Assembly: GCA_018433945.1 (NCBI GenBank)
Contig: JAHDQF010000019.1
Span: forward strand, 1 to 63,699
Reading direction: 5' to 3'
Length of the DNA stretch: 63,699 nt
From: Proteiniphilum sp.
GTDB taxonomy: Bacteria; Bacteroidota; Bacteroidia; Bacteroidales; Dysgonomonadaceae
Shown here: positions 1,282 to 15,814 of the stretch, in pieces
Layout of the letters: every line of letters begins with the position of its first letter
Position numbering within the stretch: position 1 is the first letter of the stretch
Made by a program: the position numbers and the translations under genes
Notes under the pieces: generated by a model
What the model was told of the DNA's origin: nothing
What the model saw: only the letters and a program-made list of their open reading frames with translations
Database searches by the model: none

Positions 1282-1779
1282 ACAATTATCGATCAAAAGT
1301 TGGGTAAACAATGGGTAAACAAATGTAGGAAAATATCTAAATATAACCCAAAATATCGAGTGTAATTAACATTGTTAATGCACATAAAATACAGAATAAC
1401 AGTAATATAGCAATATATACAGTTTTAACTAAAACACACTTCAATTGACTCTTAATCAATGGGTCGAGGGTTCGAGCCCCTCCGGGGTCACTTCATTATC
1501 AAGCACTTATCGATTCAGTTCGGTGAGTGCTTGATCTATTAGTCGAGCTCTAGTCGAGCAAAGTTAGAAAAACATCTCAAAAAAACCCAATACAAAACAA
1601 ACAATTGGGACTGTACATTTTTATCACGATGCATGTTTTTACTTGGCAACAGGAATTATAGTGTGCTGTAGTTATTTGATTCCTTATGTTCCTTATTTTG
1701 AATGTAGCGTTCCTTATCTTATTAAAATAGCTGATAAATAGGATAATAGATATATCATTCAGTGTTCCTTAAAGAGCAA
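1282..1779. other. Gene-free stretch around att copy 1
   Basis: Apart from the tRNA-Lys fragment, this 498-base stretch is A+T-rich and has no convincing ORF. At 1680-1772 the octamer-like word TTCCTTA occurs four times (starts 1680, 1689, 1710, 1765), downstream of the AlbA_2 gene. Its role is unknown. Confidence 0.5.
1455..1524 (+). repeat. Direct repeat copy 1: 3' half of tRNA-Lys(CTT), att site
   Basis: This stretch contains a T-arm (GAGGG TTCGAGC CCCTC) and an acceptor 3' strand CGGGGTC with discriminator A. Together with bases just upstream (1442-1460) it completes an anticodon arm ATTGA-CTCTTAA-TCAAT with anticodon CTT, matching bacterial tRNA-Lys. No D-arm or 5' acceptor strand precedes it, so it is a 3' fragment and not a working tRNA. 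A hairpin AAGCACT (1501-1507) / AGTGCTT (1526-1532) follows. It is identical to 8538-8607. Confidence 0.85.
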
Positions 1780-3234
1780 TTAGTGTTTCTTAAAAGCGTA
1801 TTTGGCATTTTTATCCCTTTGTTTCTCGCTTATGCGATTTATAATTTTCTCATTTTCCATGAACTGATTCAGATAGAGTCTCACATTTTTCTCATGAATT
1901 CCTGTCACATCTACTAATTCTTTGATTGTAGCCTCATTGTGATAAAAAAGATATTGTAAAATTCGTTTTTGTGTGAGATTATAATTAGCCCAGTTATCTT
2001 GGATAGTTTTCAAAATTGTATCTGAAATGGTTTTTGTATGATTACTTATCTTGTTACGAAGAGTCAGATACACATTTCCATTTTTCTCAACATACTCTGG
2101 TGTTGAAAGCATTGATTTTTCCATTGATTGGTAAATCCTGGAAACACCTTCGTTTAACTGCCTTACAAATCCCATATCTTCCAATGCCCTTGCCGTTCTT
2201 GGATTTCTTGAAAATCTTTCGGTTCTGATATTTTCAACATTCACTTGTGCCGGTAATGGTCCGCTATTTGAAATTTCAAGACGATCATCATAATGTTTGA
2301 TGTAGATTGCATTCCCTTGTACATTGTAAGATCGGTGACACAAAGCATTAACAACACCTTCCAGCCATGCTTCCTCAGGATATTCTGGCACCTTATTAAA
2401 GCGACCGGTATCAAGATCCAAGAAGTAATAATCTTTCAAGGTTGCTTTTAGAAACTTTTTCACCTCTTCAATAATCCATGGGATATTCTTTTCAAAGCGT
2501 ACGTCTTTAACTACATTATGTTCAGTGCCAACTTTGGCATCTGTTCCCTCATACCTTATGTACCTTAGTGATGCTGAAGTAATATACTTTTCTGGTTCTT
2601 TGGCAAAAAGTAAAATTCCTGCTTTTTTTATTTTGAACTGACCTTCTTTTTTGATTGCTAAATGTCTTTTTACCAAAAGGTCTAGCGAGTCTCCTTCATA
2701 ATTTAGCTTTTGTTTATACCTATTCAATAGTTTTATGTCAAGGTCATTGAAATCAAACTCAGGTTCAACCTCATCTTCAAACTTTCGAATCTGCTTGTCA
2801 TATTCCAAGTTTCTAACCGCATCTCTATCCAGCTGCTTGTTTTTATCATCTACTCTTAAGAAGATTTGCTCGTTATCCTTCCTCTTAAAAATCCTCTCTA
2901 TATCTTGGTCCACATGATACAAAAAAATGAGTTTTCCCTCAATATTAACCTCTTCCAGTTTTATGTTTCCATGAGGTTCAATGAAGTCAATGAAGAGATT
3001 TCTATAATCACTAATCCTTTCACCTAAACAATTTAGATCTTGAATTTCTCCATCATTTGAAACGCCAAAAGCTAAAACACCGCCATCTGCATTTAGCATC
3101 CCAATGAGTTCATTGGCTATTTTGGTGGGGCTTATCTCTTTTTCACCCAAGCCTTTTCGCTCAAAGTATTGATTTTCTCTCTTATTTTTTAGAAAATCCA
3201 AAGTGATTTGAGTATTAATCTTTGATATGACCAT
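1780..3234 (-). CDS. AlbA_2/Schlafen-type and HATPase_c_4 domain protein
   Basis: This 484-residue protein has an N-terminal AlbA_2 (Schlafen-like DNA-binding) domain at about 18-130, with the family signature EFKR-like FERKG and NADGGVLAFGVSNDG. A HATPase_c_4 region lies at about 280-375 (ALCHRSY, DDRLEISNSGPLP, RNPRTARALEDMG, EGVSRI). A C-terminal winged-helix region follows (ELVDVTGIHEKNVRLYLNQF). Such proteins are usually annotated as RecG-like ATP-binding proteins or transcriptional regulators. They recur in defence islands, sometimes as regulators or effectors. It is the last gene of the island operon, 12 bases after the helicase-methylase stop, so it is probably co-transcribed. Its function here is inferred from company only. 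Confidence 0.8.
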   Translation of the reverse strand: MVISKINTQITLDFLKNKRENQYFERKGLGEKEISPTKIANELIGMLNADGGVLAFGVSNDGEIQDLNCLGERISDYRNLFIDFIEPHGNIKLEEVNIEGKLIFLYHVDQDIERIFKRKDNEQIFLRVDDKNKQLDRDAVRNLEYDKQIRKFEDEVEPEFDFNDLDIKLLNRYKQKLNYEGDSLDLLVKRHLAIKKEGQFKIKKAGILLFAKEPEKYITSASLRYIRYEGTDAKVGTEHNVVKDVRFEKNIPWIIEEVKKFLKATLKDYYFLDLDTGRFNKVPEYPEEAWLEGVVNALCHRSYNVQGNAIYIKHYDDRLEISNSGPLPAQVNVENIRTERFSRNPRTARALEDMGFVRQLNEGVSRIYQSMEKSMLSTPEYVEKNGNVYLTLRNKISNHTKTISDTILKTIQDNWANYNLTQKRILQYLFYHNEATIKELVDVTGIHEKNVRLYLNQFMENEKIINRISEKQRDKNAKYAFKKH

Positions 3235-3246
3235 GACCTTATCGTA

Positions 3247-6200
3247 TTAATCTGCCATCGGCTTAATCATTCTTTCAATAAACGCGATTTCCTCATCTGT
3301 CAATTTGTACTTTTTGTAAAGCTGTTGATCAATTTCGGGTATTGTCTTGCTCCAATCAATGTCCGAATCAGAAGTGTAATCTTGTAGTGGTACAAACTTA
3401 TAAGTTTTTGAGGTTCCATGTTGACTTGACTTTGCTAGACTATGTAGAAACCTTGAAAACCTTGTTGAAAAGTATTTTGAAAGATTATTAGCTGAGCTTT
3501 CGTTTAACTTTAGGTCAAATCCTAACATAATATATGTTTCAGTACAAATTGTTCCTGGTAACCCTACGAAAGTATTTAAATTATCATCATTCAACTCGGT
3601 TCCAATATTGTTTGCGTATGGTGTGAACACTTTAAAACAATTTACTAAATCATCTTTAAGGTTAAATTTTTCTTTTTCGATATATCCTATTTTTCTGCCT
3701 TTTCCATAGCATATAACAGGATCTTTCAAACCTTGTTTTGTTTCTTTGAATTCTTTACTGTTTATAAATGATCCACTTAGACCAAATGGTTTTCTTGAAG
3801 AAACGTGCTTCTCAAATGATTTGAAACCAGTATCACTTTTTATTTTTTCAAAAATTTGAAGTGCGATCTCATGTCTGATAAAAATGTCGCTATCACCACT
3901 TTTCAATGAGCGCATCACTGATATCGGTTCTTCATTTTCTTTATGCGTAACAACCTTGGTTAGTCTTACGTTATTGTCATATGATTCATCCCATAAAAAA
4001 TAGCAAATTCCACCTCTGATATTTGTTTTGGGGAATATCTGTTCTGGATTTAAATAATCGTGAAGCAATGCAATTCGTTCATCTCCAAGCATCGATTCTC
4101 TAAAATCATCCAATCCTTTTCCTCCAGAATACCATCTTGTTGGCATAATCATTGAAATATATTTTGGGCCAACCATTTTGGCAATATTTACAAATTGGTT
4201 GTATATGGGCTTTGCACTAGCCTGTGCACCACCATCCATTTCCATATATGGTGGATTTCCTACTATAGCATTAAATTTCATGTTGTTATCATTATTTGCT
4301 TTCCAATATGAGTTCCCTTTTTTAATTTTTGCGACAAATTTCTGAGGGCGTAGAGTAATTTGACGAATCAAATCTTCAAAATAGTGTGTATTAATATTTG
4401 ATGAGTGAAATCCTAGTAAAGTTCGTTTAGTGATACTTTTTGCCATAGGAGTTTTACACAAAACAAATATGTTTTCTTTCACGGTTTTATTCCAGAGTGC
4501 CTTTTGTTGCACTATAGTCAATGTCTCAAGTTCATTGTTTGGATACTTTTCTTTTACACGATTTCGAAAAATACTGTATGACACATACAATGGATAAAGA
4601 CCCGATTTAGAGTTGATTTCCAGTACATGACTTTGTGGCGAAAACACATCTTCTGTCACCTCCCCATGAGATACAAATACAGGTTGTGCAATTGTTTTTT
4701 CCCGCTTTTCATCTAAAAACACATAGCCACCCAAACAATCACCTAGGTGCATATTCACCACTCTCCAAGGAGTTAACACAGTTTCTTTGTCAGGATTGCG
4801 GAAACTGGCAAATATTGAAGTGATGCGCTCAATGCGCTCTTCTATGGTCAGATGGTCTGCAGCCCTTGCTAATGCTCTGATGCGTTTACCTGCTGCTCTG
4901 AATACATCAGGTTCATAGTATTTCTTGAATTTTAAAAATGTCTCCTTTGTTACACCTTTAGGCATAAACTCTTCCCATGATTGGTCATCAACCAATTCTG
5001 TAAAGTTGTCAATTGATATCTCTTCTTCCTCGTTGCTTACGTCTGCACCATAAATCAATAAAGGCATGCGGATGGAAATACCACGAAGAATAGACACTGC
5101 ACTGTCACGGTTTTTCTTTTTTTCAAATTTCTTCGCTAGAAGTTGTTTCTCATCTTCTGTTAATTCCTCTTTTTTCTTCTTTTTAGCTGCTTCCAGTTGT
5201 GCATATTCTTCATCAGTAAAGCCCTGTTTGTTTACATCGATATCACCACTTTTCGGCATGGCCTTGGTGCTTCCAATGATCTTTTTAAGTCCTTCAAATT
5301 CTTCCAGGTCTATAGATTCTAGTTTCATCAGTTGGTCATTGTTGTACAAGTAACCATCCTCAAAACCATTTCTTACAACACGTTCTACATAAACCTTTTT
5401 GAGTTGCTCGAGCATACCGTTTACATCATAGCTTTTCATTATTGAGCCATGAATTGCAATTATGGGGCAGAAGTTAAGAAACTCCCCCATTATTTTGCGG
5501 TCTTCACCTGACGTTTTTCCTGCCTTGGCCGATATCTTTGCTGTCTCAGCAATTACTTTTAAAGTGCGGTCGGGGGCAAAGTCGAATACAAAACATTCTT
5601 CCTTCACCTTCCCGTTGATGGTTGCAGGTGTTTGAACTCTGAAAATGGTTTGCATATAACCAGACGCAGAGGTGTTGTGTGAGCCCGATAGCATAAATAC
5701 TGCTGTCCAGGCTTTTACCGATACGCCTGTTGTCAATCTACCACATGACAGGGTAATGGTATATGTTTCATGCGGTTTGTCTGAAATAGCTTTTTCAACT
5801 TTTTGGAGTGCCTCTTCTTTAGATTCCTCTTCGTCACCATCACCTGCCGCATTCACTACATCAAATTGTCCAAACACGGGATGTGACTTCAGTATTTTGC
5901 TTAAAGCTTTAGCTTCTTTTACTCCAGGTACCATCCAAAGTGAGTGTCGAAAATTATCCCGGTATTCTTCTGTAGAGTAGGGATAATTGCTTTCTTCATC
6001 TTCTTTGCAAATGAGATTTAAAAAGGAACGGACATCTTTTTCATGCAAAAAACTACCGGTTTCATTTACTCTGAAAAATTCTCGGAAATTAAAAGCTACT
6101 TCCTCGTCTTTGTAATCGCGAAATATTTTACCAAGATCGTATGTGAAGATATTGAGTTTGGGAAGGGACGCATACGGATTTGGATCTCCAAAGTGGATTT

Positions 6201-7236
6201 TATCCCATTCCGTTTTCGCCTTTTGTTCCATCACATAATCCCAAGTATAGATTTCATCTTCTTCATAATTGTCCAATAGATTGAATGGTGTGCCGGAAAG
6301 ATGAAGTACTTTGGTGTTCCCTTTTTGCAATTCTTGAAGTACATTCTTTCCTAGCTCTGTTTGAGTGCCTTCATGTGCTTCGTCAACAATGATAAAATCC
6401 CATTGTGTGCCAAAGATTTCATCATTCTTATTGAAGTTTCCTCCTACTAATTCTGACCCTCTTAGGTCTTGCATAGAAGCAAAGTAGATGTATTTAGTAC
6501 CCTTCGTTTTGTTTTCTTTTTCTAACGTGTCAAATTGGTTGCCGTTGCTTTTTGAGCCGTAGGCATATTGCGGTTCATTATAAAAGACTTTCCCGAAATC
6601 TTCAAACCAACCTTTGTCAACAACGGGCCTGTGCGTTAAAATCAGTGTTCTCGAAAATTCTTGCTCTTTTACTACTTGAAGAGCTGAGAGTGTTTTTCCA
6701 AAACGCATTTTTGCAAACCAAAGCATTTCATTCCCCTTTTTGAATTGCTTCTTGGTTTTTTCTATGGCTTCTATTTGCTCAGGCCTGAAAATTATTGGGT
6801 TTTGTGTTTCGGTAATTTTGCTTGCATCTATCGAGTCTTTACCTTCTTTGACAGCTGAAATTGCATTTTTTACAGTTTCAAGGTCGGTGATGAACCATTC
6901 GTTTGCTTTATTCTTGGTGTCAAAAATCTTCCTCTTAATTCCTGAACGAATCAATACATTATGTACCTCTTTGTCGGAAAATCCTTTGATAATACCTCTC
7001 TCGGCGTAAATGGCAACTTCCGTGTATAACAGGTCATAGGAAATTCCGGCTGTTTGAGTGTATTGATCAATTCGTTTCTTAGCAGCTTTGTTCAGTGCTT
7101 TGCTATTTGGTTCGAGACCCCAAATATTTTCATTGTCTGATGTTGCTTCTCCAACTTTCAAACAGCCTTTGTGTGCATCATCATTGATACGAAATACATA
7201 GATTAACTTAAGCTTTAAAGATGATGTGAATTTCAT
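3247..7236 (-). CDS. GIY-YIG nuclease - DEAD/DEAH helicase - Eco57I-type methyltransferase fusion
   Basis: This is a 1329-residue multidomain protein. Residues 10-115 fit a GIY-YIG nuclease of the T5orf172 type (LIYVFRI, CLKVGEAT, KKRIDQY, DKEVHNVL, EWF). Residues 150-550 are an SF2 helicase core: MRFGKT at about 177, VDEAHEG at about 284, SGTP at 314, and GRLTTGVSVKAW at about 499. A lysine/glutamate-rich linker lies at about 680-710. Residues 800-1000 are an N6-adenine methyltransferase: TPWRVVNMHL, a motif I-like VLEINSKSGLYPLY at about 871 and the catalytic NPPY at 994-997. The last 330 residues probably recognise the target. Cleavage, translocation and methylation in one chain suggests a type IIG/ISP-like restriction enzyme, but a GIY-YIG nuclease in that role is uncommon. 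The start overlaps the upstream stop (TAATG), implying coupled translation. Confidence 0.9.
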   Translation of the reverse strand: MKFTSSLKLKLIYVFRINDDAHKGCLKVGEATSDNENIWGLEPNSKALNKAAKKRIDQYTQTAGISYDLLYTEVAIYAERGIIKGFSDKEVHNVLIRSGIKRKIFDTKNKANEWFITDLETVKNAISAVKEGKDSIDASKITETQNPIIFRPEQIEAIEKTKKQFKKGNEMLWFAKMRFGKTLSALQVVKEQEFSRTLILTHRPVVDKGWFEDFGKVFYNEPQYAYGSKSNGNQFDTLEKENKTKGTKYIYFASMQDLRGSELVGGNFNKNDEIFGTQWDFIIVDEAHEGTQTELGKNVLQELQKGNTKVLHLSGTPFNLLDNYEEDEIYTWDYVMEQKAKTEWDKIHFGDPNPYASLPKLNIFTYDLGKIFRDYKDEEVAFNFREFFRVNETGSFLHEKDVRSFLNLICKEDEESNYPYSTEEYRDNFRHSLWMVPGVKEAKALSKILKSHPVFGQFDVVNAAGDGDEEESKEEALQKVEKAISDKPHETYTITLSCGRLTTGVSVKAWTAVFMLSGSHNTSASGYMQTIFRVQTPATINGKVKEECFVFDFAPDRTLKVIAETAKISAKAGKTSGEDRKIMGEFLNFCPIIAIHGSIMKSYDVNGMLEQLKKVYVERVVRNGFEDGYLYNNDQLMKLESIDLEEFEGLKKIIGSTKAMPKSGDIDVNKQGFTDEEYAQLEAAKKKKKEELTEDEKQLLAKKFEKKKNRDSAVSILRGISIRMPLLIYGADVSNEEEEISIDNFTELVDDQSWEEFMPKGVTKETFLKFKKYYEPDVFRAAGKRIRALARAADHLTIEERIERITSIFASFRNPDKETVLTPWRVVNMHLGDCLGGYVFLDEKREKTIAQPVFVSHGEVTEDVFSPQSHVLEINSKSGLYPLYVSYSIFRNRVKEKYPNNELETLTIVQQKALWNKTVKENIFVLCKTPMAKSITKRTLLGFHSSNINTHYFEDLIRQITLRPQKFVAKIKKGNSYWKANNDNNMKFNAIVGNPPYMEMDGGAQASAKPIYNQFVNIAKMVGPKYISMIMPTRWYSGGKGLDDFRESMLGDERIALLHDYLNPEQIFPKTNIRGGICYFLWDESYDNNVRLTKVVTHKENEEPISVMRSLKSGDSDIFIRHEIALQIFEKIKSDTGFKSFEKHVSSRKPFGLSGSFINSKEFKETKQGLKDPVICYGKGRKIGYIEKEKFNLKDDLVNCFKVFTPYANNIGTELNDDNLNTFVGLPGTICTETYIMLGFDLKLNESSANNLSKYFSTRFSRFLHSLAKSSQHGTSKTYKFVPLQDYTSDSDIDWSKTIPEIDQQLYKKYKLTDEEIAFIERMIKPMAD

Positions 7237-8249
7237 TATTTCTTACTCTTTAATAGGTCAACAAACTTAATCTTCCTCCCTGACTTACCAGTTGTTAAGT
7301 CCTTTTTTGTCCAGTCTTTTATTAAACAATATTTCCCATTATGCCTGAAAATATTATTATCCATGCATCCTTTGCAAAAGGTGTTTTCTGTTTTAACATT
7401 TCCAAATAGATCAACTTCAGATATTGTGATGCCACCGCAAGAGTCCGGAATCACACCTCTTAATCCATCCATTTGCCAGACGTTCCATGAGATTATATAT
7501 GCGATATAGCAAAGAGATTTTATTAGTGGCTCTTTCCCGAATTTTACAATATAATTCTCAATGAATGTAACAAGCATTGCCTCACGTGCAAGAAGTAAGC
7601 TGTCTCCTTGCCATTCAAATGCATAGGTGTTTTTATATGCGATTTGTGCTGCTTTGAGCCATTCTCCGCTGGTATCCACATTTTCGCTAATTACTCTTAG
7701 CTTTCTGTCCAATATCCCTATTCTGTTTTCAACTGCGATAAACTCACCTGTGGTGCTATCATACCTGCTCGTTATATAGGGTGCTTCGCCACATGCCATC
7801 TCTAAACGGGTGTCCCGCACATAATCTTCCCAGGTTTTTCCCTTTGGAAAAAGGATTTTTTCTCTTTTTACTTCCCACTTGTAGGTTCCATTGTCTTGTG
7901 GAATTTCAGTATTAAAAACATCATTCCTTCCAAACCAAGCATGATCTATTAAATTGTTCTGTGCATTACAAATCCAAGAAGGGGTAAACACTTCTGCCAT
8001 CTCTTTAGACCTCGATTGTTGCAAAAATTTGTCTTTCTGAACTCTTGGCATTATGATATTCCCATTTTCTGCCGTGATTAGTTCAGGCAATATTTGAGAG
8101 TTAAAATTGTATTCTTTGCCTAAATACCTATAGTTGTTTGTTGCCCAGAATATATTTTTTTGTGTTGTATGATCACGAAGTAAGATTTTTAGAACTTCAG
8201 GATACTGCTCTAAAATCTCGTTTTCTAATATGTCTATACCTATTCTCAC
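7236..8249 (-). CDS. N6-methyltransferase-like protein without visible NPPY motif
   Basis: This 337-residue protein has SKEMAEVFTPSW at about 81-92, typical of the motif X region of adenine methyltransferases. LEMACGEAPYI at about 149-159 looks like AdoMet motif I. I see no NPPY/DPPY catalytic motif downstream, so on its own it may not methylate. A C-terminal Cys-rich patch (CKGCM, then C after about 13 residues) could bind metal. The stop and the ATG of the following fusion gene share a base, which argues for an obligate partner, perhaps a specificity or allosteric half of the methyltransferase. Its start overlaps the stop of the small upstream ORF by 4 bases. Confidence 0.75.
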   Translation of the reverse strand: MRIGIDILENEILEQYPEVLKILLRDHTTQKNIFWATNNYRYLGKEYNFNSQILPELITAENGNIIMPRVQKDKFLQQSRSKEMAEVFTPSWICNAQNNLIDHAWFGRNDVFNTEIPQDNGTYKWEVKREKILFPKGKTWEDYVRDTRLEMACGEAPYITSRYDSTTGEFIAVENRIGILDRKLRVISENVDTSGEWLKAAQIAYKNTYAFEWQGDSLLLAREAMLVTFIENYIVKFGKEPLIKSLCYIAYIISWNVWQMDGLRGVIPDSCGGITISEVDLFGNVKTENTFCKGCMDNNIFRHNGKYCLIKDWTKKDLTTGKSGRKIKFVDLLKSKK

Positions 8250-8455
8250 TCAATTTTTTCTTTACTACTAGATCTTAAAGGCTCTTTCTCATAATTTACA
8301 ATTATGGTAGCTATCTCAAAAATACTTCTGTCGTACATTTCATAATAACTAATCCAAGCAACGAATTTACGAAATCTTAGTAATGTCTGCAACTTCTTTA
8401 AGCTGTTGACTAGCTTTAGATAGCTTTGCTTGTACAGAATCCATTCGTTTTTCAT
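8246..8455 (-). CDS. Small hypothetical protein heading the island operon
   Basis: This 69-residue ORF overlaps the next gene by four bases (ATGA), the pattern used throughout this operon. The sequence is basic and aromatic-rich (KQSYLKLVNSLKK, FRKFVAWISYY) with no domain I recognise. No Shine-Dalgarno site precedes the ATG, which is normal in Bacteroidetes. It lies about 80 bases from the att repeat. It could be a small regulator or a spurious ORF; the coupled overlap and uninterrupted frame are the only support. Confidence 0.45.
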   Translation of the reverse strand: MKNEWILYKQSYLKLVNSLKKLQTLLRFRKFVAWISYYEMYDRSIFEIATIIVNYEKEPLRSSSKEKIE

Positions 8456-8537: not shown

Positions 8538-8607
8538 ATCAATGGGTCGAGGGTTCGAGCCCCTCCGGGGTCACTTCATTATCAAGCACTTATCGATTCA
8601 GTTCGGT
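8538..8607 (+). repeat. Direct repeat copy 2: 3' half of tRNA-Lys(CTT), att site
   Basis: This is identical over 70 bases to 1455-1524. The upstream bases differ, so the anticodon stem does not pair well here. The following hairpin AAGCAC (8584-8589) / GTGCTT (8610-8615) runs into TTTTCTTTT, a plausible original tRNA terminator. Weaker similarity to the flank of copy 1 continues to about 8652 (shared GTCGAGCTC and AAAGTT). I read this as the chromosomal tRNA 3' end displaced by integration. Confidence 0.85.
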
Positions 8608-8667
8608 AGGTGCTTTTTCTTTTGGTCGAGCTCCGGTCTGGAATAAAGTTGATTACCGGGAATATCT

Positions 8668-11496
8668 TTACCACTCCCATTTCGCTCTTTTTTTCATTTC
8701 CTTTTTCATTTTTTTGCGAAATTCTTCTGCCTCTTTCTCTTCTTTCTTCAAGGCTTGCTCGCGGATCTCGTCCTGAGTAAGATCATGACTCTCAAAAATT
8801 TCGGCTATTGACACCCACTCTTCGTTGCACAGGATCTGTAGCTCCGGATTAAGCTGGTAATATCCCCTACTGATTCGTTTAAAGATTTTTTTGTTGTATG
8901 GACTCTGGCTGTCAATTTCGTGCTTTGCCAGGAGTGATCCTAAATATACCCGTTTTTTACGGTAGGCAGGCATTACCGCCTCGGAGAAGTGCTGAAGATT
9001 CCCGAGCAGGTCACCTACTCTCACACCCATCGCCTCACGATATTGTTTTGTCTGAAGAATCATCGATTGAACAGCAATAAAGAGGTTGATCAGCAGGTAC
9101 TCGATCTTATGCGAATCAATTTTGATTAACTGTTCGTCTACCCGTATTTTCATCGAATCGGAAAGCAGGAGTGGGTATATTTTCCCTAACTTGTTTTTCG
9201 CATAGTCAGGCAGCAAAAAGGCTTGTTGCAGCGCGATCTGGATAGGTGTTTTGCGGAACGTATCCGGCAGGTTAGGATTGGCGCCGTTGCTGAGCAGTGT
9301 TCGGGTGATATTTACAGCGCCTGCATAGGCGGCTGCATGCAAAGGGGTAAAATTGTATTCATCCCGGTAATCGATCCCGTACTTGTTGAGTAAAGGAACG
9401 ATCGTTTTCACATTGTCTTCCTTATAATGCTGATAGTATTTTCTAAACAAGGAAGTCCGTTCGGATTCGTAGCGCTCGGCCCGTTTGTATTTTAATTCGG
9501 CAAGCTGGTCAATCACAAGCAACTGGTTATGCAGGAGGGCAAAATCGAAAAGTTTGTCCTTCGCTTTCTTGTTAAAGTTATCAGGATTGAGGGCTTCTTT
9601 TTTGACCGTCTGGTAACGTTCCAGCGTCATCGGTTCCCAATTCGGCTTTTCCGTAACCAGGATGTTTTTACGGATAGCCTCCGCCTGTTCGGCTTTACCC
9701 TGCATCTCGAGCCGCCGCGCTTCCCGCTTCCAGTCGTCGGCCGACGATATCTCCTCCTTGATATCCCCTGAGACATTATCCTCAGAAATCTCCAGCAACC
9801 GGATCAGCTTGTGACCTCTTGTCTGCTCTACGATATACACATTTTTTACAGCACGTGTAACGGCCACATAGAGCGAGTTGATATAAAATTTGTAAATATC
9901 GAGCGATTTATCCGTCTTGTCCTTTCCCCGGGCATAAGCCAGTTCATCAACCAGCAGATCGTCCGGAGTGACTCCTTCACATACGGCGTTGTACTCGGCC
10001 GTATTGTCTGAAATGAAGTTGTACAGGATGATATTTTCATATTCAAGTCCCTTCGATTCCTGTACCGAAAATAAGAGCGGTGACTGAAACAGGGTTCTTG
10101 CCTTTGCTTTGTCTTCATTTCGCAGCACCAGCACAGCATAGTTGACCGAGAGACGCGTCTTTCGTCCCAGGTCGGCAATGGCATTCCCTTTATTTCCAAC
10201 GAAAACGACTTCCCCTGTTGTTTCCGCAACGGTACTGACCAGGTAATTACTTTCCTTGTCGATGGATCCAAAACGGGCATGCTTGATTTTCAGCAACCGG
10301 TTGGCCAGGTTCGATACGGTCTGGCTGTTGCGGTAATTGGCACGTAATATTTTTATTTCATCCCCTTTCAGGTCACTTTGGTAAAACATGCTTTTAAGAT
10401 GTGACCAGGAAAAGAAATTGGGATGCACGACCTGGTTCGAATCGCCGCAAAGAATAAAATTGGCCGGGTTCTTCAGCGACTTCAGGATGATATGCAGCTG
10501 GATGTTTGTAAAATCCTGTACCTCATCCACCACGATAAAATCATAAACCGGGGAGCAGTAGGGCAGCCACTGGTGCGTCAGGATGTTGATGTCGTAATGG
10601 CCGTTCTCTTTCAGATAATTCAGATATTTTTCAAACAGGTTATAAACTGTTTCCCGTTCGTTAGCCAGAAAGATGGATTGTTTTACACCCAAAGCCAGGT
10701 AATCTTCGCGCGATAAATATTCCTTCGTAATATCATAACCGGTGATCACACCCCTGAATTCCTCGAAAGTTTTATGGGCGTCTTTCAGTTTAGCGGCTTG
10801 CTGGTGTCTGGAGAACCAGGCTTCGAATGTCCTGAAATCGAGTTCTTTTCCCTCGGGTATCCGCAGGGTTTCGATAAATTCCCGGTAAGAGAGAAAATCG
10901 ATCTCCAGCTTGTCGTTATCATAATTGTGGGAATAGAACAGCCGCGCCGCATTCTCGGCAAGGTAAGGGGAAAGAGTGATATACAACACCCTGCCGGTAA
11001 GCGATTTAATCTTTTCGAGCGTCAGGGCCGTTTTGCCGCTTCCTGCCGAGCCAATAATAATTTGGGGCAATGGCAGCGAAAGTATTTCATCCTGGTTATC
11101 GTCGAATGACAATACTTTATCGAGCAGATGAAAATGACGGTACCGATGGTTTACATAGGTGAGCGGCAGGTAATCATTGGCAGGTATTTCCTGGTGATTG
11201 CTGACCGGAACCAGTCTGGATTCGTCTATTTCACTTCCGCGTAGGAAACGGGACTTGTCGTATTCGTGATGAAAAATGATCTCATAGACCAACAAACAGG
11301 TTTGATTGTTATAACGGCCGAATTTGAACAGCAGGCGGTTTTCATAATCCAGCTTGGCACGGTAGTAATCGGTTCCCGTCATTTTTTTTACTTCTGCTGA
11401 AGCAAAATCACCCCGCGAAAGTTGTTCCAGCACTTTATCAAATTGTTTGCGGATCTTCCCGGGTTCCAGATCGTTATAAATGTAAATATCGAACAT
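8668..11496 (-). CDS. UvrD-like helicase with RelE-like N-terminus and ankyrin repeats
   Basis: This is a 942-residue protein. Residues 1-90 have the look of a RelE/ParE-type fold (TDYYRAKLDYENRLLFKF, then a YEIIFHHEYD strand). Residues 140-590 are an SF1 helicase of the UvrD/Rep group: GSAGSGKT at 149-156, VVDEVQDF, LRANYRNSQT, QESKGLEYENIILY and YVAVTRA. After a charged linker, ankyrin repeats begin near residue 710 (TPLHAAAYAGAVN, LLSNGANPN, TPIQIAL). The C-terminus is very basic. Helicases fused to RelE-like domains are known in scattered bacteria without a settled role; DNA repair or phage defence is plausible. The gene is monocistronic and lies just outside the right att repeat. Confidence 0.85.
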   Translation of the reverse strand: MFDIYIYNDLEPGKIRKQFDKVLEQLSRGDFASAEVKKMTGTDYYRAKLDYENRLLFKFGRYNNQTCLLVYEIIFHHEYDKSRFLRGSEIDESRLVPVSNHQEIPANDYLPLTYVNHRYRHFHLLDKVLSFDDNQDEILSLPLPQIIIGSAGSGKTALTLEKIKSLTGRVLYITLSPYLAENAARLFYSHNYDNDKLEIDFLSYREFIETLRIPEGKELDFRTFEAWFSRHQQAAKLKDAHKTFEEFRGVITGYDITKEYLSREDYLALGVKQSIFLANERETVYNLFEKYLNYLKENGHYDINILTHQWLPYCSPVYDFIVVDEVQDFTNIQLHIILKSLKNPANFILCGDSNQVVHPNFFSWSHLKSMFYQSDLKGDEIKILRANYRNSQTVSNLANRLLKIKHARFGSIDKESNYLVSTVAETTGEVVFVGNKGNAIADLGRKTRLSVNYAVLVLRNEDKAKARTLFQSPLLFSVQESKGLEYENIILYNFISDNTAEYNAVCEGVTPDDLLVDELAYARGKDKTDKSLDIYKFYINSLYVAVTRAVKNVYIVEQTRGHKLIRLLEISEDNVSGDIKEEISSADDWKREARRLEMQGKAEQAEAIRKNILVTEKPNWEPMTLERYQTVKKEALNPDNFNKKAKDKLFDFALLHNQLLVIDQLAELKYKRAERYESERTSLFRKYYQHYKEDNVKTIVPLLNKYGIDYRDEYNFTPLHAAAYAGAVNITRTLLSNGANPNLPDTFRKTPIQIALQQAFLLPDYAKNKLGKIYPLLLSDSMKIRVDEQLIKIDSHKIEYLLINLFIAVQSMILQTKQYREAMGVRVGDLLGNLQHFSEAVMPAYRKKRVYLGSLLAKHEIDSQSPYNKKIFKRISRGYYQLNPELQILCNEEWVSIAEIFESHDLTQDEIREQALKKEEKEAEEFRKKMKKEMKKRAKWEW

Positions 11497-11542
11497 GCGA
11501 ACATTATTAGAATCAGTAGATAGGCTTCAGTAGACACGCTTT

Positions 11543-11574
11543 CTGATTCATATAAACCCTGATTCATATAAACC
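11543..11574. repeat. 16-bp tandem duplication upstream of the UvrD-like gene
   Basis: The 16-base unit beginning CTGATTCATATAAACC occurs twice head to tail (11543-11558, 11559-11574), 47 bases upstream of the helicase start codon. It could be a duplicated operator or a replication slip. Confidence 0.7.
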
Positions 11575-11595
11575 CAACATATCCCGAATAAAAGT

Positions 11596-11664
11596 TGCAT
11601 GTGCCAGGTAAAGTGTTTAATTTTAGATTATTAAGTAAAAAATACCATTCATCTGGCACATGCA
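11596..11664. repeat. 12-bp inverted repeat, 45-base spacer
   Basis: TGCATGTGCCAG (11596-11607) is the perfect reverse complement of CTGGCACATGCA (11653-11664). It lies between the divergent UvrD-like and SRAP genes. It could fold in RNA or mark a small insertion; no transposase is nearby. Confidence 0.6.
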
Positions 11665-11723
11665 GGACAAAAATACATAAAAGTTTTTACAAACAAAAAA
11701 CATCATCACCAAAGAGAAAAAGT

Positions 11724-11731
11724 TACATTTG
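11724..11731 (+). promoter_or_regulatory. -7 promoter element of the SRAP gene
   Basis: TACATTTG matches the Bacteroidetes -7 consensus TAnnTTTG, 46 bases upstream of the start codon. No clear -33 TTTG was found. Confidence 0.5.
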
Positions 11732-11777
11732 CTGCAATAATAAAATTAGCTAAATAACATTGGATACGCTATAATAT

Positions 11778-12488
11778 ATGTGTTTCACCATTTCAGTTGA
11801 GAAAAAAGCAAAGGAAGCAATCCGGAAATATTTGAATGCCAATGAAGGCGTACAGAGTGAAATTGACTTTGACGACGATTATTTCCTTGTATCGGGTTTC
11901 GATCACCCAAAATTACCCATCATCAAACAGGGTAAGATTGAACTTTCTGAATGGGGCTTGATACCTTCTTTTGCATACAGCGACGAAATGGCCAGGGATA
12001 TCCGGGATAAAACACTAAATGCCCGATCCGACACGATCCACGAGAAACGTTCCTACAAATCATCCATCAAAAACCAACGCGCCATTTTGGTTGTGGATGG
12101 ATTTTTCGAGTGGAAGCACGAAGGCAGCACCAAAATTCCATATTATATCTTTCCAAAAGACAATACGGCTTTCAACATCGGCTGTATTTACAACCGGTGG
12201 ACCAACAAGCTTACCGGAGAGATCGTGGATACTTTCTCTATTATCACCACCGATGCCAATCCATTGATGGAGGTAATCCACAATACCAAGAAAAGAATGC
12301 CCCTGATCCTTTCAAAATCGAATATCAACGTATGGATCAATCCTGAGACTGATATGAATGTGATAAATAGGTTGATGAAGCCTTTCCCTGAAAAAGAGAT
12401 GGATGCTTACCAGATTTCCAGGAACGCGGGTAATCCGGGCATCAATCGTAATTACCCGGGCATCAAAGATCGGGTAGATAACGGGTAG
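11778..12488 (+). CDS. SOS response-associated peptidase (SRAP/HMCES/YedK family)
   Basis: This 236-residue protein begins Met-Cys; Cys2, exposed after Met removal, is the catalytic nucleophile that cross-links to abasic sites in single-stranded DNA. Other family signatures visible are WGLIPSF, NARSDTI, the GFFEWKHE active-site Glu and VIHNTKKRMPLIL with the active-site His. The role is protection of abasic sites in ssDNA through a DNA-protein crosslink. It is a standalone gene of normal family length, transcribed away from the UvrD-like helicase. A DNA-maintenance pairing with that helicase is possible but not shown. Confidence 0.93.
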   Translation: MCFTISVEKKAKEAIRKYLNANEGVQSEIDFDDDYFLVSGFDHPKLPIIKQGKIELSEWGLIPSFAYSDEMARDIRDKTLNARSDTIHEKRSYKSSIKNQRAILVVDGFFEWKHEGSTKIPYYIFPKDNTAFNIGCIYNRWTNKLTGEIVDTFSIITTDANPLMEVIHNTKKRMPLILSKSNINVWINPETDMNVINRLMKPFPEKEMDAYQISRNAGNPGINRNYPGIKDRVDNG

Positions 12489-12498
12489 ATAATCCGAA

Positions 12499-12957
12499 TT
12501 ATTCTTTCACTTCTCTCCGGTCACAGATGCCGTTGTTGTTGGCATCGATAAAATTGGCTTGCCGTCCCAGTCCGTTGCGAAGGCCGGTACCTCTTCCGGG
12601 ACCGCGTCCCTGTCCCATTGTTCCGTTTTCATAATGGTCGCAAATGCCGTTCTTATCGGCATCCACAAAGTTCCTGCCTCCACCGCGACCGTTTCGCATG
12701 CCGTAGCTCTGTCCTCTGCTTCGTCCGCTGCCATCAAGCAATCTTCCTTTGCCGGTGGCATTCGGGTTTCCTGGTGTACCCTTCTCGAAATTGTCACAAA
12801 TGCCGTCGTTGTCGTTGTCCACAAACGCAGGCCCTCTCTGAGAGGTGGTTGTCACCTGTTTGTTGTCCTGATTCTGATCCTGATTCTGGTTCTGTGCTGT
12901 GACCAGACCGGCAGAGAGTATCACTGCCAATGCTGAAATAAAGATTTTTGTTTTCAT
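12499..12957 (-). CDS. Secreted protein with Asp-rich calcium-binding-like repeats
   Basis: This 152-residue protein has a signal peptide (MKTKIFISALAVILSAG) and a Gln/Asn-rich stretch. Three repeats of the form F-x-D-x-(D/N)-x-(D/N)-G-I-C-D follow (FVDNDNDGICD, FVDADKNGICD, FIDANNNGICD), separated by Gly/Arg-rich spacers. The acidic loops resemble EF-hand or thrombospondin type-3 calcium loops, each with one Cys. No named family is certain. It lies downstream of the Spy-like gene of the sigma-factor operon, after a 255-base purine-rich gap, and may belong to the same regulon. Confidence 0.7.
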   Translation of the reverse strand: MKTKIFISALAVILSAGLVTAQNQNQDQNQDNKQVTTTSQRGPAFVDNDNDGICDNFEKGTPGNPNATGKGRLLDGSGRSRGQSYGMRNGRGGGRNFVDADKNGICDHYENGTMGQGRGPGRGTGLRNGLGRQANFIDANNNGICDRREVKE

Positions 12958-13212
12958 TTTTTTTTGAATTTAACCGGTTTGTTATTTTAATTCATTCTCG
13001 TCGTTTTGTCCATTTTATTCATTTATCTCATTTCCCGTACAATTCTCACACTTTTCACGCTTCGCATTTTCTCACTCCTCATATTCTTACTCCTCCTTTC
13101 TTCACCTCACTTACCTTACCCGTTTTGCGCACTGCATTCTCTTTTTTCCCAATGTTGAAGTATTGGAACAATTGCCCTGCGGAACTGATTTTCGCACCTG
13201 TCATTCCCCTCT
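12958..13212. other. Strand-asymmetric gap (purine-rich on the minus strand)
   Basis: About 200 bases are strongly pyrimidine-rich on the plus strand, so purine-rich in the minus-strand transcript, with loosely repeated GTGAGAA/GTGAAGAA words. A 61-codon minus-strand ORF crosses it but has no protein-like features. It may be the leader of the secreted repeat protein. Confidence 0.4.
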
Positions 13213-13758
13213 TCACCCTTGGCCGTAGCGGTGTCTGCTCCCCTGGCCGGTGCTGTCGTTCCATTGATAGCCTCTGCCCCTGTTCACGGTACCGTCACGG
13301 AAGAGCGGGAGGAAAGCCTGTTGCAGCTGCTCGCACTGTGTGGAGTCGCAGACTGTTTTCAGCTGGAGATAAAAGGCATTGGTGATCTTTTTCAGTTCGG
13401 CATGGTGGCTTCCCACCTGTTCCGAAAGCTCGTTCAGCCGGATTGTGTCGGGTGTGGGACTGTTCAGCTCCGTGAACATCTCGTTCTTCAGCGAGTCCAT
13501 CTCGAAGATCAGATCGTTCGCCCTATATTGAAAGGAGCGATGTGCCTCCCTGAAAAGAGCCATTTGGGCATCATCAAAGCCGAGTGTCTGTCTGAAGAAC
13601 CTCCCGGTGAGCGGATTTTGCCGGTTCTCATCGAGTATGATGGCAATGTTGTCGCTGCTGCTCTCCCGGTTCCGGAAGAGAATGGTGCCGATGGTTGTCA
13701 GATTCAGCACCACCAGCAGAGCGATGGCCCACCAGAGTATTTTATTTCCCCTATTCAT
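13213..13758 (-). CDS. Spy/CpxP-like periplasmic (heavy-metal sensor) protein
   Basis: Starting at the ATG at 13758 (MNRGNKILWW) the product is 181 residues. It has one N-terminal membrane anchor at about 5-25, then an all-helical periplasmic domain (GFDDAQMALFREAHRSF, LNELSEQVGSHHAELKKITNAFYLQLKTVC) like the Spy/CpxP/LTXXQ group. The C-terminus is Gly/Arg-rich. An upstream in-frame ATG at 13797 is less likely because this start overlaps the previous stop by eight bases, suggesting coupling. Spy-like proteins are envelope-stress chaperones or metal sensors. Position behind an ECF sigma factor and a small membrane protein fits an envelope-stress module. Confidence 0.75.
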   Translation of the reverse strand: MNRGNKILWWAIALLVVLNLTTIGTILFRNRESSSDNIAIILDENRQNPLTGRFFRQTLGFDDAQMALFREAHRSFQYRANDLIFEMDSLKNEMFTELNSPTPDTIRLNELSEQVGSHHAELKKITNAFYLQLKTVCDSTQCEQLQQAFLPLFRDGTVNRGRGYQWNDSTGQGSRHRYGQG

Positions 13759-14038
13759 TACTGTAAAGGTAATATTGCAGGTTCTCCATCTGAGCATCGT
13801 TGATATTCAGTACGATATCCGGTGTCCCGTTCTCCACATAACTGTTTCCCAGGGATACCCCCAGAAAAATGGCAGCGGCAAAGCCGGCTGCAAGAGCTAT
13901 GGTTTGCCAGAGCGGTGTTTTGCTTCTTGCCTGCTTCAAACCTTCTATTTTCGCCATGACCCTGGTGGAGAGGTACGGATTGGGGAACGTCTCCTTTTCA
14001 CGCCGGATAAGCTCCTCTATATGGATTTCTGTTTTCAT
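13751..14038 (-). CDS. Small single-pass membrane protein, possible anti-sigma factor
   Basis: This 95-residue protein has a cytoplasmic N-terminus (KTEIHIEELIRREKETFPNPYLSTRVMAKI), one membrane segment at about 44-62 (LAAGFAAAIFLGVSL) and a short periplasmic tail. It sits between the ECF sigma factor and the Spy-like gene, the usual place for an anti-sigma factor. It lacks a zinc-binding HxxxCxxC motif, so the anti-sigma role is inferred from size, topology and position. Confidence 0.65.
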   Translation of the reverse strand: MKTEIHIEELIRREKETFPNPYLSTRVMAKIEGLKQARSKTPLWQTIALAAGFAAAIFLGVSLGNSYVENGTPDIVLNINDAQMENLQYYLYSNE

Positions 14039-14165
14039 TGCGATCGATTGGATTTATTGTTTTGGAACTGCTTAATATATCATGATTTACCTTTGTGATT
14101 TTATAAGCTTGCCTGTTTCTTTTTATTTGCTCTTTTAATGATTAGACAATCATTCCGCCGTTTTC

Positions 14166-14702
14166 CTACGGGGTAGTCAATTTTTTTTTCAGATTCTCTT
14201 TGGCTCTTTGCAGAAGCTGCTCCACGGCCCCCTCTGATCGGTTCATCACCGCTGCGATCTTTTTCTGGGGCAGCTCCTCGTAACGGCTCAGGATAAAGGC
14301 CATGCGCTGTTTGTCCGGGAGGGAGTCAATCGCCATTCTGATCCGTCTGTCACGTTCCGCGCTCTCCAGCTTTTCCAGCGGGGTCTTTTCTTCGCTGTGG
14401 AGGGAGAAGATGGTTTGCAGGGATTGTTGGAACCGGATTTTTCTGTTCCTGTGGAGAAAGTTGAGACTCATATTGATGGTGATCCGGTAGAGCCAGGTGG
14501 AAAATTCCGATTCGTGCTGAAAGGAGGAGAGCGACTGGTAAACCCTGACAAAGATATCCTGGGTAACCTCTTCCGCATCTTCTTTTGTGTGGACAAAGCC
14601 CAGTACGGTGCGGAATACCTGCAGCTGGTACTTTTCCATCAGGTTTTTAAAGGCAGCATGGTTGCCTGATACAATTTCCCTTATCAGTTGTTCGTCCGAC
14701 AT
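14166..14702 (-). CDS. ECF-family RNA polymerase sigma factor
   Basis: This 178-residue protein has sigma region 2 (AFKNLMEKYQLQVFRTV, AEEVTQDIFVRVYQSL, STWLYRITINMSLNFL) and region 4 (LPDKQRMAFILSRYEELPQKKIAAVMNRSEGAVEQLLQRAK). This is typical of RpoE-like extracytoplasmic-function sigma factors. It is the first gene of a minus-strand set with a small membrane protein and a Spy-like protein, so it probably directs an envelope-stress response. The upstream 250 bases hold two copies of TGTTACAATATA that could be regulatory. Confidence 0.93.
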   Translation of the reverse strand: MSDEQLIREIVSGNHAAFKNLMEKYQLQVFRTVLGFVHTKEDAEEVTQDIFVRVYQSLSSFQHESEFSTWLYRITINMSLNFLHRNRKIRFQQSLQTIFSLHSEEKTPLEKLESAERDRRIRMAIDSLPDKQRMAFILSRYEELPQKKIAAVMNRSEGAVEQLLQRAKENLKKKLTTP

Positions 14703-14818
14703 TCAGCGCTGTTTACAATTCACTGTGATTTTAGACAGCAAAAAAACTTCTTTCCTACGGTATTGACAAGATAATTTTTACAGACTTTTTCTTTATCGTA
14801 TATCTTAAGGAAGCCTGT

Positions 14819-14896
14819 TGTTACAATATAGCATTTATGGAGACAGACGATTCCGTCGCCTTCTCAATTTCAACGGCGAGCCTGTGTTACAATATA
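14819..14896. repeat. Two direct copies of TGTTACAATATA upstream of the sigma gene
   Basis: The 12-mer occurs at 14819-14830 and 14885-14896, separated by 54 bases, in the gap between the sigma factor start and the esterase stop. A promoter or operator role is possible; no factor can be named. Confidence 0.5.
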
Positions 14897-14953
14897 ACAA
14901 AGGCATATTTTATGGTGGATTATTCCTCCTTCCCGGAATGAAATTGTGAGCTG

Positions 14954-15814
14954 TCAAAAACTCTCCAACCACTTGTCCAGTTCTGCCATAAACTGATGAT
15001 GATAGGGGAATGATGTGCGGTTCCCGAATCCGTGTCCACCTTCAGGATAGAGCAGCAGTGTGACCGGGATATTATTCCGTATCAATGCCTCTGCATAACG
15101 GAACCCGTTTGCGGGCGGCACTGTCTTATCGTCTGCAGCGAAGATAATAAAAGCCCCGGGAGTATCTTTGTTTATCTGCAATTCATTTGAATAGCGCGTA
15201 ATTTGCTCCGGCGAAGGTTGCTCACCAAGCAGGTTCTTACGGGAGCCTCCGTGTGTGTACGATGCATCCATGGTGATCACGGGATACAGCAATATCTGAA
15301 AGGAAGGCCCTTCATCCCCGGTTGCATGGGTTGCATAGGTGGAAGCCAGATGTCCCCCGGCTGAAGATCCCATAATACCGATATCCTCCGGATCAATATG
15401 CCACGATGATGCATGTTGTCTGACAAGCCCGAAGGCTGCTTTCACATCAGCAAAAGGAATATCCGGATCACCTGCGGGCATCCGGTATTTCAGTACGCCA
15501 TATGCGATCCCTTTTCCCAAAAAGTAAGGTGCCCAGTCGAACCCCTCATGGAAAACCGCAAGATTTTGATACCCACCGCCGGGCAAGGCAATCACCATGC
15601 GTCCTGTCGCCTTCTCTTTTTCGGGGAGATACACCCGCAACGAAGGAGCTCTCATCCCTCTGGCAGTGTCGCTTTCCAGGGAGGGCACCGTATCTCCGGT
15701 GCTTAGGTAATAGTCCGTGTAGCAATACGGAATCTCAACGTTGTCAGCCTGTTGTGCACCAGCTGTTACAGCGACACAGCATACGAAAAATAATGCAATC
15801 GAAAGGTGTTTCAT
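14954..15814 (-). CDS. Secreted alpha/beta-hydrolase (esterase/acetyl-xylan-esterase-like)
   Basis: From the ATG at 15814 the product is 286 residues with a signal peptide (MKHLSIALFFVCCVAVTAGA). The fold markers of the BD-FAE/esterase-lipase group are visible: ALPGGGYQNL (oxyanion loop), GIMGSSAGGHLAS (nucleophile Ser in GxSxG), FAADDKTVPP (acid) and YPEGGHGFG (His). It likely de-acylates carbohydrate or small esters in the periplasm. The longer frame from 15919 lacks a signal peptide and is not preferred. It lies downstream of the QmoC-like gene on the same strand with a 105-base gap, and is probably an independent unit. Confidence 0.85.
   Translation of the reverse strand: MKHLSIALFFVCCVAVTAGAQQADNVEIPYCYTDYYLSTGDTVPSLESDTARGMRAPSLRVYLPEKEKATGRMVIALPGGGYQNLAVFHEGFDWAPYFLGKGIAYGVLKYRMPAGDPDIPFADVKAAFGLVRQHASSWHIDPEDIGIMGSSAGGHLASTYATHATGDEGPSFQILLYPVITMDASYTHGGSRKNLLGEQPSPEQITRYSNELQINKDTPGAFIIFAADDKTVPPANGFRYAEALIRNNIPVTLLLYPEGGHGFGNRTSFPYHHQFMAELDKWLESF

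Follow-up and report, generated by a model that had tools for sequence, protein, structure and literature searches.

The 63,699 nucleotides (nt) of contig JAHDQF010000019.1 (positions 1 to 63,699, forward strand) from Proteiniphilum sp., GenBank assembly GCA_018433945.1, hereafter the window, carry near their left end a series of four minus-strand open reading frames (ORFs), two of which probably encode a restriction-modification system with an adenine methylase split between two proteins. Along the minus strand these are a 69-amino-acid (aa) ORF at 8246-8455, a gene with a GTG start for a 337-aa protein at 7236-8249 (the partner), a gene for a 1329-aa protein at 3247-7236 (the large protein), and a gene for a 484-aa protein with AlbA_2 and HATPase_c_4 domains at 1780-3234, the last lying just beyond the interval 3247-8455 in which the locus was first noted. 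The 69-aa ORF and the partner gene overlap by 4 bases, the partner and large genes have a single base in common within TAATG, and 12 bases separate the large gene from the AlbA_2 gene. The cassette of about 7 kb is bracketed by att-like direct repeats of 101 nt at 1455-1555 and 8538-8638 (plus strand), which are 92% identical to each other and have a 31-base core present twice in the real sequence and in none of 100 shuffles. Elsewhere in the genome is a tRNA-Lys(CTT) gene whose 3' end and adjoining flank resemble both repeats at 88%. A preliminary description of this DNA had proposed four close-set minus-strand ORFs in an att-bounded island, and its coordinates, overlaps, gap and repeats were all reproduced. 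A tyrosine integrase gene at 1-1311 stands outside the left repeat and runs off the contig end, and none was seen within the cassette itself, an arrangement suggestive of tRNA-Lys islands stacked on one another or of mobilisation in trans. The large protein has a single match in the window's own genome.

The fusion of nuclease, helicase and methylase parts that had been proposed for the large protein was upheld by Pfam, by profiles of its relatives and by residue conservation. Pfam placed a ResIII domain at residues 150-318 (E 1.3e-15) and an Eco57I methylase domain at 921-1068 (E 3.2e-29). The superfamily 2 (SF2) helicase covers aa 150-560 (5557-6789, minus strand), with GKT at 180-182, DEAH at 285-288 and SGT at 314-316, and its motif residues are conserved in all 79 sequences compared except A287, kept in 78. 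The N-terminus (aa 1-140; 6817-7236, minus strand) appears to be a GIY-YIG nuclease of the T5orf172 type by an indirect profile match through relatives: the N-terminal profile of the window's family (12-sequence set) matches the N-termini of six distant relatives with E 8e-17 to 7e-7, and among five such relatives three (L101, L107, L114; L and G numbers are our handles for loci and genomes) pass the Pfam cut-off for T5orf172 and two (L111, L113) fall slightly below it. Among four further relatives, L266 reaches T5orf172 and L264 the related MUG113. Residues Y13, K27, G29, R55, D88, E113 and W114 are invariant in the 79 sequences and H92 is kept in 74, so the profile match by way of relatives is joined by the conserved Tyr, Lys-x-Gly, Arg and acidic residue of a GIY-YIG domain, the last being Asp88. 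The C-terminal part (aa 985-1329; 3250-4284, minus strand) holds methylase motif IV, NPPY at 994-997 in 79/79, and a target recognition domain (TRD). Mean pairwise identity is 0.62-0.71 in blocks up to aa 984, 0.50 over aa 985-1083 and 0.32 over aa 1084-1329, and the recognition region is the fastest-changing part of the protein. The AlphaFold model of residues 1-1200 (mean predicted local distance difference test score, pLDDT, 78.9; predicted template-modelling score, pTM, 0.53) found LlaBIII (E 1.5e-20) and LlaGI (E 1.2e-15) as its best Foldseek matches in the PDB, over 1155-1165 columns; with low template-modelling scores of 0.20-0.25, and for LlaBIII a high root-mean-square deviation of about 19, the agreement is one of domain order and not necessarily of arrangement. 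In sequence searches of the PDB with the two proteins, matches with poor E-values (such as topoisomerase V, sialidase and Scarecrow-like) were taken as chance.

The partner has the motifs that form the front of an adenine methylase, namely X (EVFTP, 86-90), I (E..CGEAPY, 150-158), II (YxxE, 209-212) and III (QMDG, 259-262), the names being assigned by eye. Because motifs X to III are present and a motif IV of the NPP[YFWH] type was found in none of 79 partner sequences, the protein is likely half of a methylase, the half binding S-adenosylmethionine (SAM) in a gamma-type enzyme, complementary to the motif IV and TRD half of the large protein. C153, G154, E155 and P157 are invariant in the 79, residue 212 is always Glu or Asp, and PADLOC matched the partner to MTase_II PDLC03390 with E 2.7e-113. 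Its AlphaFold model (pLDDT 88.9) has strands at 148-151, 208-212 and 257-259, and it is matched by the models of two half-size viral proteins labelled 'N-6 DNA methylase' (E 3.7e-12 and 6.7e-5). A first motif reading, with DRKLR as II and QGD as III, was dropped after comparison of motif order with fused and sibling proteins.

The large protein carries a front half of its own, at aa 801-984 (4285-4836, minus strand), which we call the ghost since it retains the motif order in a degenerate form. In its motif I, LEINSKSG, Lys877 replaces the glycine in 79/79, and residue 927 is Cys in 78 and Ser in one, so that no sequence has the acidic motif II residue; canonical genes inspected by eye have Asp or Glu at the matching position. 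Among the active-site residues for which loss had been the point to check, those of the GIY-YIG domain and NPPY are kept across the 79 sequences, and the SAM-site residues of the large protein's front half are lost; the helicase residues are conserved as well. Motifs X, I, II, III and IV occur in order only when partner and large protein are combined, and in one chain in two natural fusions (phage FNU4 and viral contig L253). The suggestion that the locus encodes a multi-subunit variant and not a simple type IIG enzyme is supported.

The large protein has 166 genome relatives, of which the best 80 were compared for gene neighbourhood together with three viral loci found via the partner. The large gene exceeds 900 aa in 79 of the best 80 genome relatives; exclusion of L074, where it is truncated by the contig, and of L081, which has none, left 81 loci. 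The partner was found with the large gene in 78 of these, on the same strand in 77 and with its end at most 150 bases from the large ORF in 75. The three loci without it (L015, L031, L042) have fewer than 1100 bases upstream, and L042 retains a fragment of the partner's end; the partner is present in 74/74 genome loci with at least 1100 bases upstream, a count that does not include L082 and L083, found through the partner. A separate draw of 395 Bacteroidota genomes contained the partner in seven (that of the window, G023, G034, G112, G168, G257 and G289), each with an NPPY-TRD protein no more than about 3 kb away. The AlbA_2 gene was absent from all 69 loci whose downstream sequence reaches 1600 bases, and for the 69-aa ORF tblastn at E 1e-5 gave no relative among the 83 loci and Pfam no family. 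The conserved gene order expected of four genes is therefore confined to two of them, the methylase-like partner keeping its place beside the large gene, and these counts indicate a system of two proteins, partner and large protein.

The significance of the ghost's lysine was assessed among Eco57I-family genes at large. A search for PF07669 across 61 Bacteroidota genomes was positive in 43, and 90 places were fetched, the listed matches being merged gene by gene and the window's own excluded. Lys occupies motif I in 7 of the 90, and an ORF for a half methylase adjoins all seven, compared with 0/83 of the others. The chance of seven such neighbours falling on exactly these genes would be 1.3e-10 for independent genes, an assumption that does not hold, the seven being mutually related and of three types.

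Phages, viral contigs and plasmids provide natural rearrangements of the same parts. Tenacibaculum phage PTm1 has an NPPY half, a small helix-turn-helix (HTH) gene and the partner, and over its whole record (224,680 bases) the large-protein profile matches the C-terminal part only; the same partner and NPPY pair appears for PTm5 in database listings. In Fusobacterium phage FNU4 the partner and NPPY half form one ORF, with no other large-protein match in 44,440 bases. Viral contig L253 has a partner-NPPY fusion adjoining a separate GIY-YIG-helicase protein with a terminal ghost. Partner, NPPY half and GIY-YIG-helicase-ghost are three genes in L252, and the same three parts recur in L114 and in a Bifidobacterium plasmid, where an insertion sequence element separates partner and NPPY half. 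These rearrangements indicate that the partner accompanies the NPPY half, with the ghost remaining alongside motor and nuclease. When viral contigs were scanned, the FNU4 fusion gave 18 pattern matches and no relative, and the PTm1 NPPY half matched PTm1's own contig only. A small annotated HTH regulator lies just upstream of the partner in phage PTm1 (L109, 3804-4004) and in a plasmid of Enterococcus faecium (L112, 6699-6902), and is possibly a controller of partner expression.

The gene pairing, the distribution of motifs, the degenerate ghost, the natural fusions and the domain order can be read from the sequences themselves. We consider it probable that they reflect a mobile two-protein, ATP-dependent restriction-modification system in which an adenine methylase is split between chains. 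Of a gamma-type N6-adenine methylase, the partner would supply the front half, which binds SAM and has motifs X-I-II-III, and the C-terminus of the large protein the back half, with NPPY motif IV and the TRD. Together they would form a working methylase that marks the host's sites, and the ghost, devoid of the usual SAM-site residues, would keep this NPPY-TRD attached to the chain of nuclease and helicase. When foreign DNA is unmodified, the TRD would locate the site, the SF2 motor would translocate and the GIY-YIG domain would cut, much as in Type ISP enzymes with a different nuclease. Methylation and the base it concerns, complex formation, translocation and cleavage are steps that we infer.

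Several observations weigh against this picture. Pfam calls no GIY-YIG domain on the window's protein, L252 and L265 reach neither T5orf172 nor MUG113, and D88 sits where the textbook GIY-YIG motif has Glu. Sequence and profile searches with either protein returned no solved homologue in the PDB, and the partner model had no PDB match at E <0.2, chains of DrdV and BrxX appearing at probabilities of 0.09-0.41; the low structural agreement with LlaBIII given above belongs here as well. The pairing has irregular cases: partner and large gene are 0.3-1.0 kb apart in L010, L027 and L063, 1.7 kb in G112 and 2.7 kb in G168; the partner is on the opposite strand in L052; in G112 it has an internal stop and the large ORF is 971 aa without a GIY-YIG match, both genes looking damaged; L114 encodes helicase and ghost in two overlapping frames; and in a Treponema plasmid (L123) the partner is alone at the end of the record and cannot be judged. 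In the control, which covers one phylum, motif I of the 83 genes is Gly or Ala in 56 and gave no call in 27, several of which have the motif out of view, where Lys is possible. Moreover, two of the 83 gave marginal half matches (L203, E 1e-4; L209, E 6e-4), which we take for fragments of the Eco57I-family gene itself, interrupted.

A further point of this kind leads to the alternative that fares best, that of a large protein forming a complete methylase despite its Lys motif I and of a partner serving as a second, catalytically dead subunit for stabilisation or help in DNA binding. AlphaFold orders ghost strands 871-876, 923-927 and 949-952 ahead of the NPPY strand 990-993 in the large chain, as a possible complete methylase would have them, and the ghost's mean pairwise identity of 0.62 shows good conservation. 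However, PTm1 and FNU4 retain the partner and drop the ghost, the CGE and acidic motif II residue are kept in 79/79 partners and lost from the ghost, and the Lys motif occurs only with an adjacent half gene (7/7), so this alternative seems unlikely to us. We find it very improbable that the large protein is modification-dependent (Type IV-like) or regulatory, its methylase parts only reading DNA and the pair not methylating: the lost SAM-site residues of the ghost would suit such a role, but NPPY is invariant in 79/79, and the methylase-only versions that phages retain are consistent with methylation serving to protect DNA.

Least credible of all is a system in which partner, large protein and AlbA_2/HATPase protein, perhaps with the 69-aa ORF, act together, as was first thought, since the AlbA_2 gene, although on the same strand and so close behind the large gene in the same repeat-bounded cassette, is missing from every testable relative save for a 28-residue fragment in L003, the sole tblastn match among the loci, and has a 96% identical copy in G397, a genome of the same genus that is 86% complete and in which no large protein was found, the copy being truncated where its contig begins. 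There, at locus L257, the AlbA_2 gene and downstream sequence are 93-94% identical to window 1584-3075. Neither this protein nor the 69-aa ORF is thus retained as a component, and the AlbA_2 protein is best regarded as a passenger of the cassette. A PADLOC profile for pAgo also matched the AlbA_2 protein (E 4.8e-41), which counts among the observations against our reading and which we take as due to its AlbA_2-HATPase part.

The split system resembles Type ISP enzymes such as LlaGI and LlaBIII in its order of nuclease, SF2 helicase, methylase and recognition domain (PMC4666363). It differs in that LlaGI and LlaBIII are single chains, whereas here a second protein holds the front half with intact motifs; their nuclease is of the Mrr family, here one of the T5orf172-type GIY-YIG group by indirect profile match; and the methylase front half within the large protein is degenerate. 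By two of the features compared, the single polypeptide and the Mrr nuclease, it is not a Type ISP member, although its mode of action is probably similar. Type IIG enzymes are not known to have an ATP-driven helicase, whereas a ResIII domain with conserved GKT and DExH is present here. Type IIG enzymes have nuclease and methylase in one chain; in the window the two are fused, yet the front half in cis is degenerate and the intact one is in trans. The PADLOC profiles REase_MTase_IIG PDLC03626 and MTase_II PDLC03375 and PDLC03390 strongly match the C-terminal part of the large protein and the partner, and these labels do not indicate that two MTase_II pieces complete each other.

Sibling systems share a half methylase without NPPY, a Lys-type front half with NPPY-TRD, and a T5orf172-helicase; their half is shorter (220-260 aa), with a canonical motif I. 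G450, G453 and phage NatCom_35866 encode helicase and methylase as two proteins; in L115 and L118, plasmids of lactic acid bacteria, the two are fused. The DnmA-YeeB-YeeC systems of B. subtilis and its homologues have an adenine methylase, an SF2 helicase and a T5orf172/GIY-YIG protein in one locus, with no antiphage effect reported in B. subtilis and one reported in Vibrio crassostreae; the three functions are separate genes there, and the accessible text describes no split methylase (PMC9973331). To call the present system new, as was tentatively done at first, is thus too strong: PADLOC lists its pieces, public records annotate its relatives, and clusters of methylase, helicase and T5orf172 protein have been published (PMC9973331). 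The pieces are known to databases, and searches of the open-access PubMed Central literature gave, as a weak negative, no account of a split adenine methylase, of the ghost or of orphan phage halves.

Such orphan halves, partner-like and putatively SAM-binding, occur in MT836154, MT836051 and the IMG/VR contigs of L248-L251, six phage records of three sequence groups; the loci include L246 11671-12372 and L247 8231-8836. The NPPY-TRD profile matched 0/6 and Eco57I 0/6 at E 1 in these records, some of which are fragments, and in the same scan the NPPY-TRD profile did match L252 and L253. A phage with an orphan SAM half could borrow the host's recognition half and so mark its own DNA with host specificity. 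Tentatively, and as a possibility that we rate well below the split methylase itself, one recognition half may serve two front halves, methylating with the partner and restricting with the ghost, so that partner supply would set the balance between marking and cutting, which phages would exploit, some with both methylase halves and others with the SAM half alone.

If the split methylase is real, two proteins, the restriction enzyme being one of them, together build the active site of an adenine methylase, and the half that is missing from the restriction enzyme persists there as a dead copy. This would give a physical handle on the balance of protection and cutting in such systems, would assign a function to stand-alone 'subunit M' genes, and would predict a counter-measure by phages for which half an enzyme suffices. 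Shuffling of specificity may come in addition: L083 has two extra NPPY-TRD cassettes near its large gene, in both orientations (12153-13199, plus strand; 13247-14356, minus strand), with inverted repeats (160 nt at 76%, 33 nt at 97%) and, at 14359-15213, a tyrosine recombinase, the whole region covering 11060-15213, and these features together make shuffling of DNA specificity likely there.

Just past the right repeat of the window, 8668-11496 encodes a 942-aa UvrD-like helicase with ankyrin repeats and weak matches to GajB-type helicase profiles.

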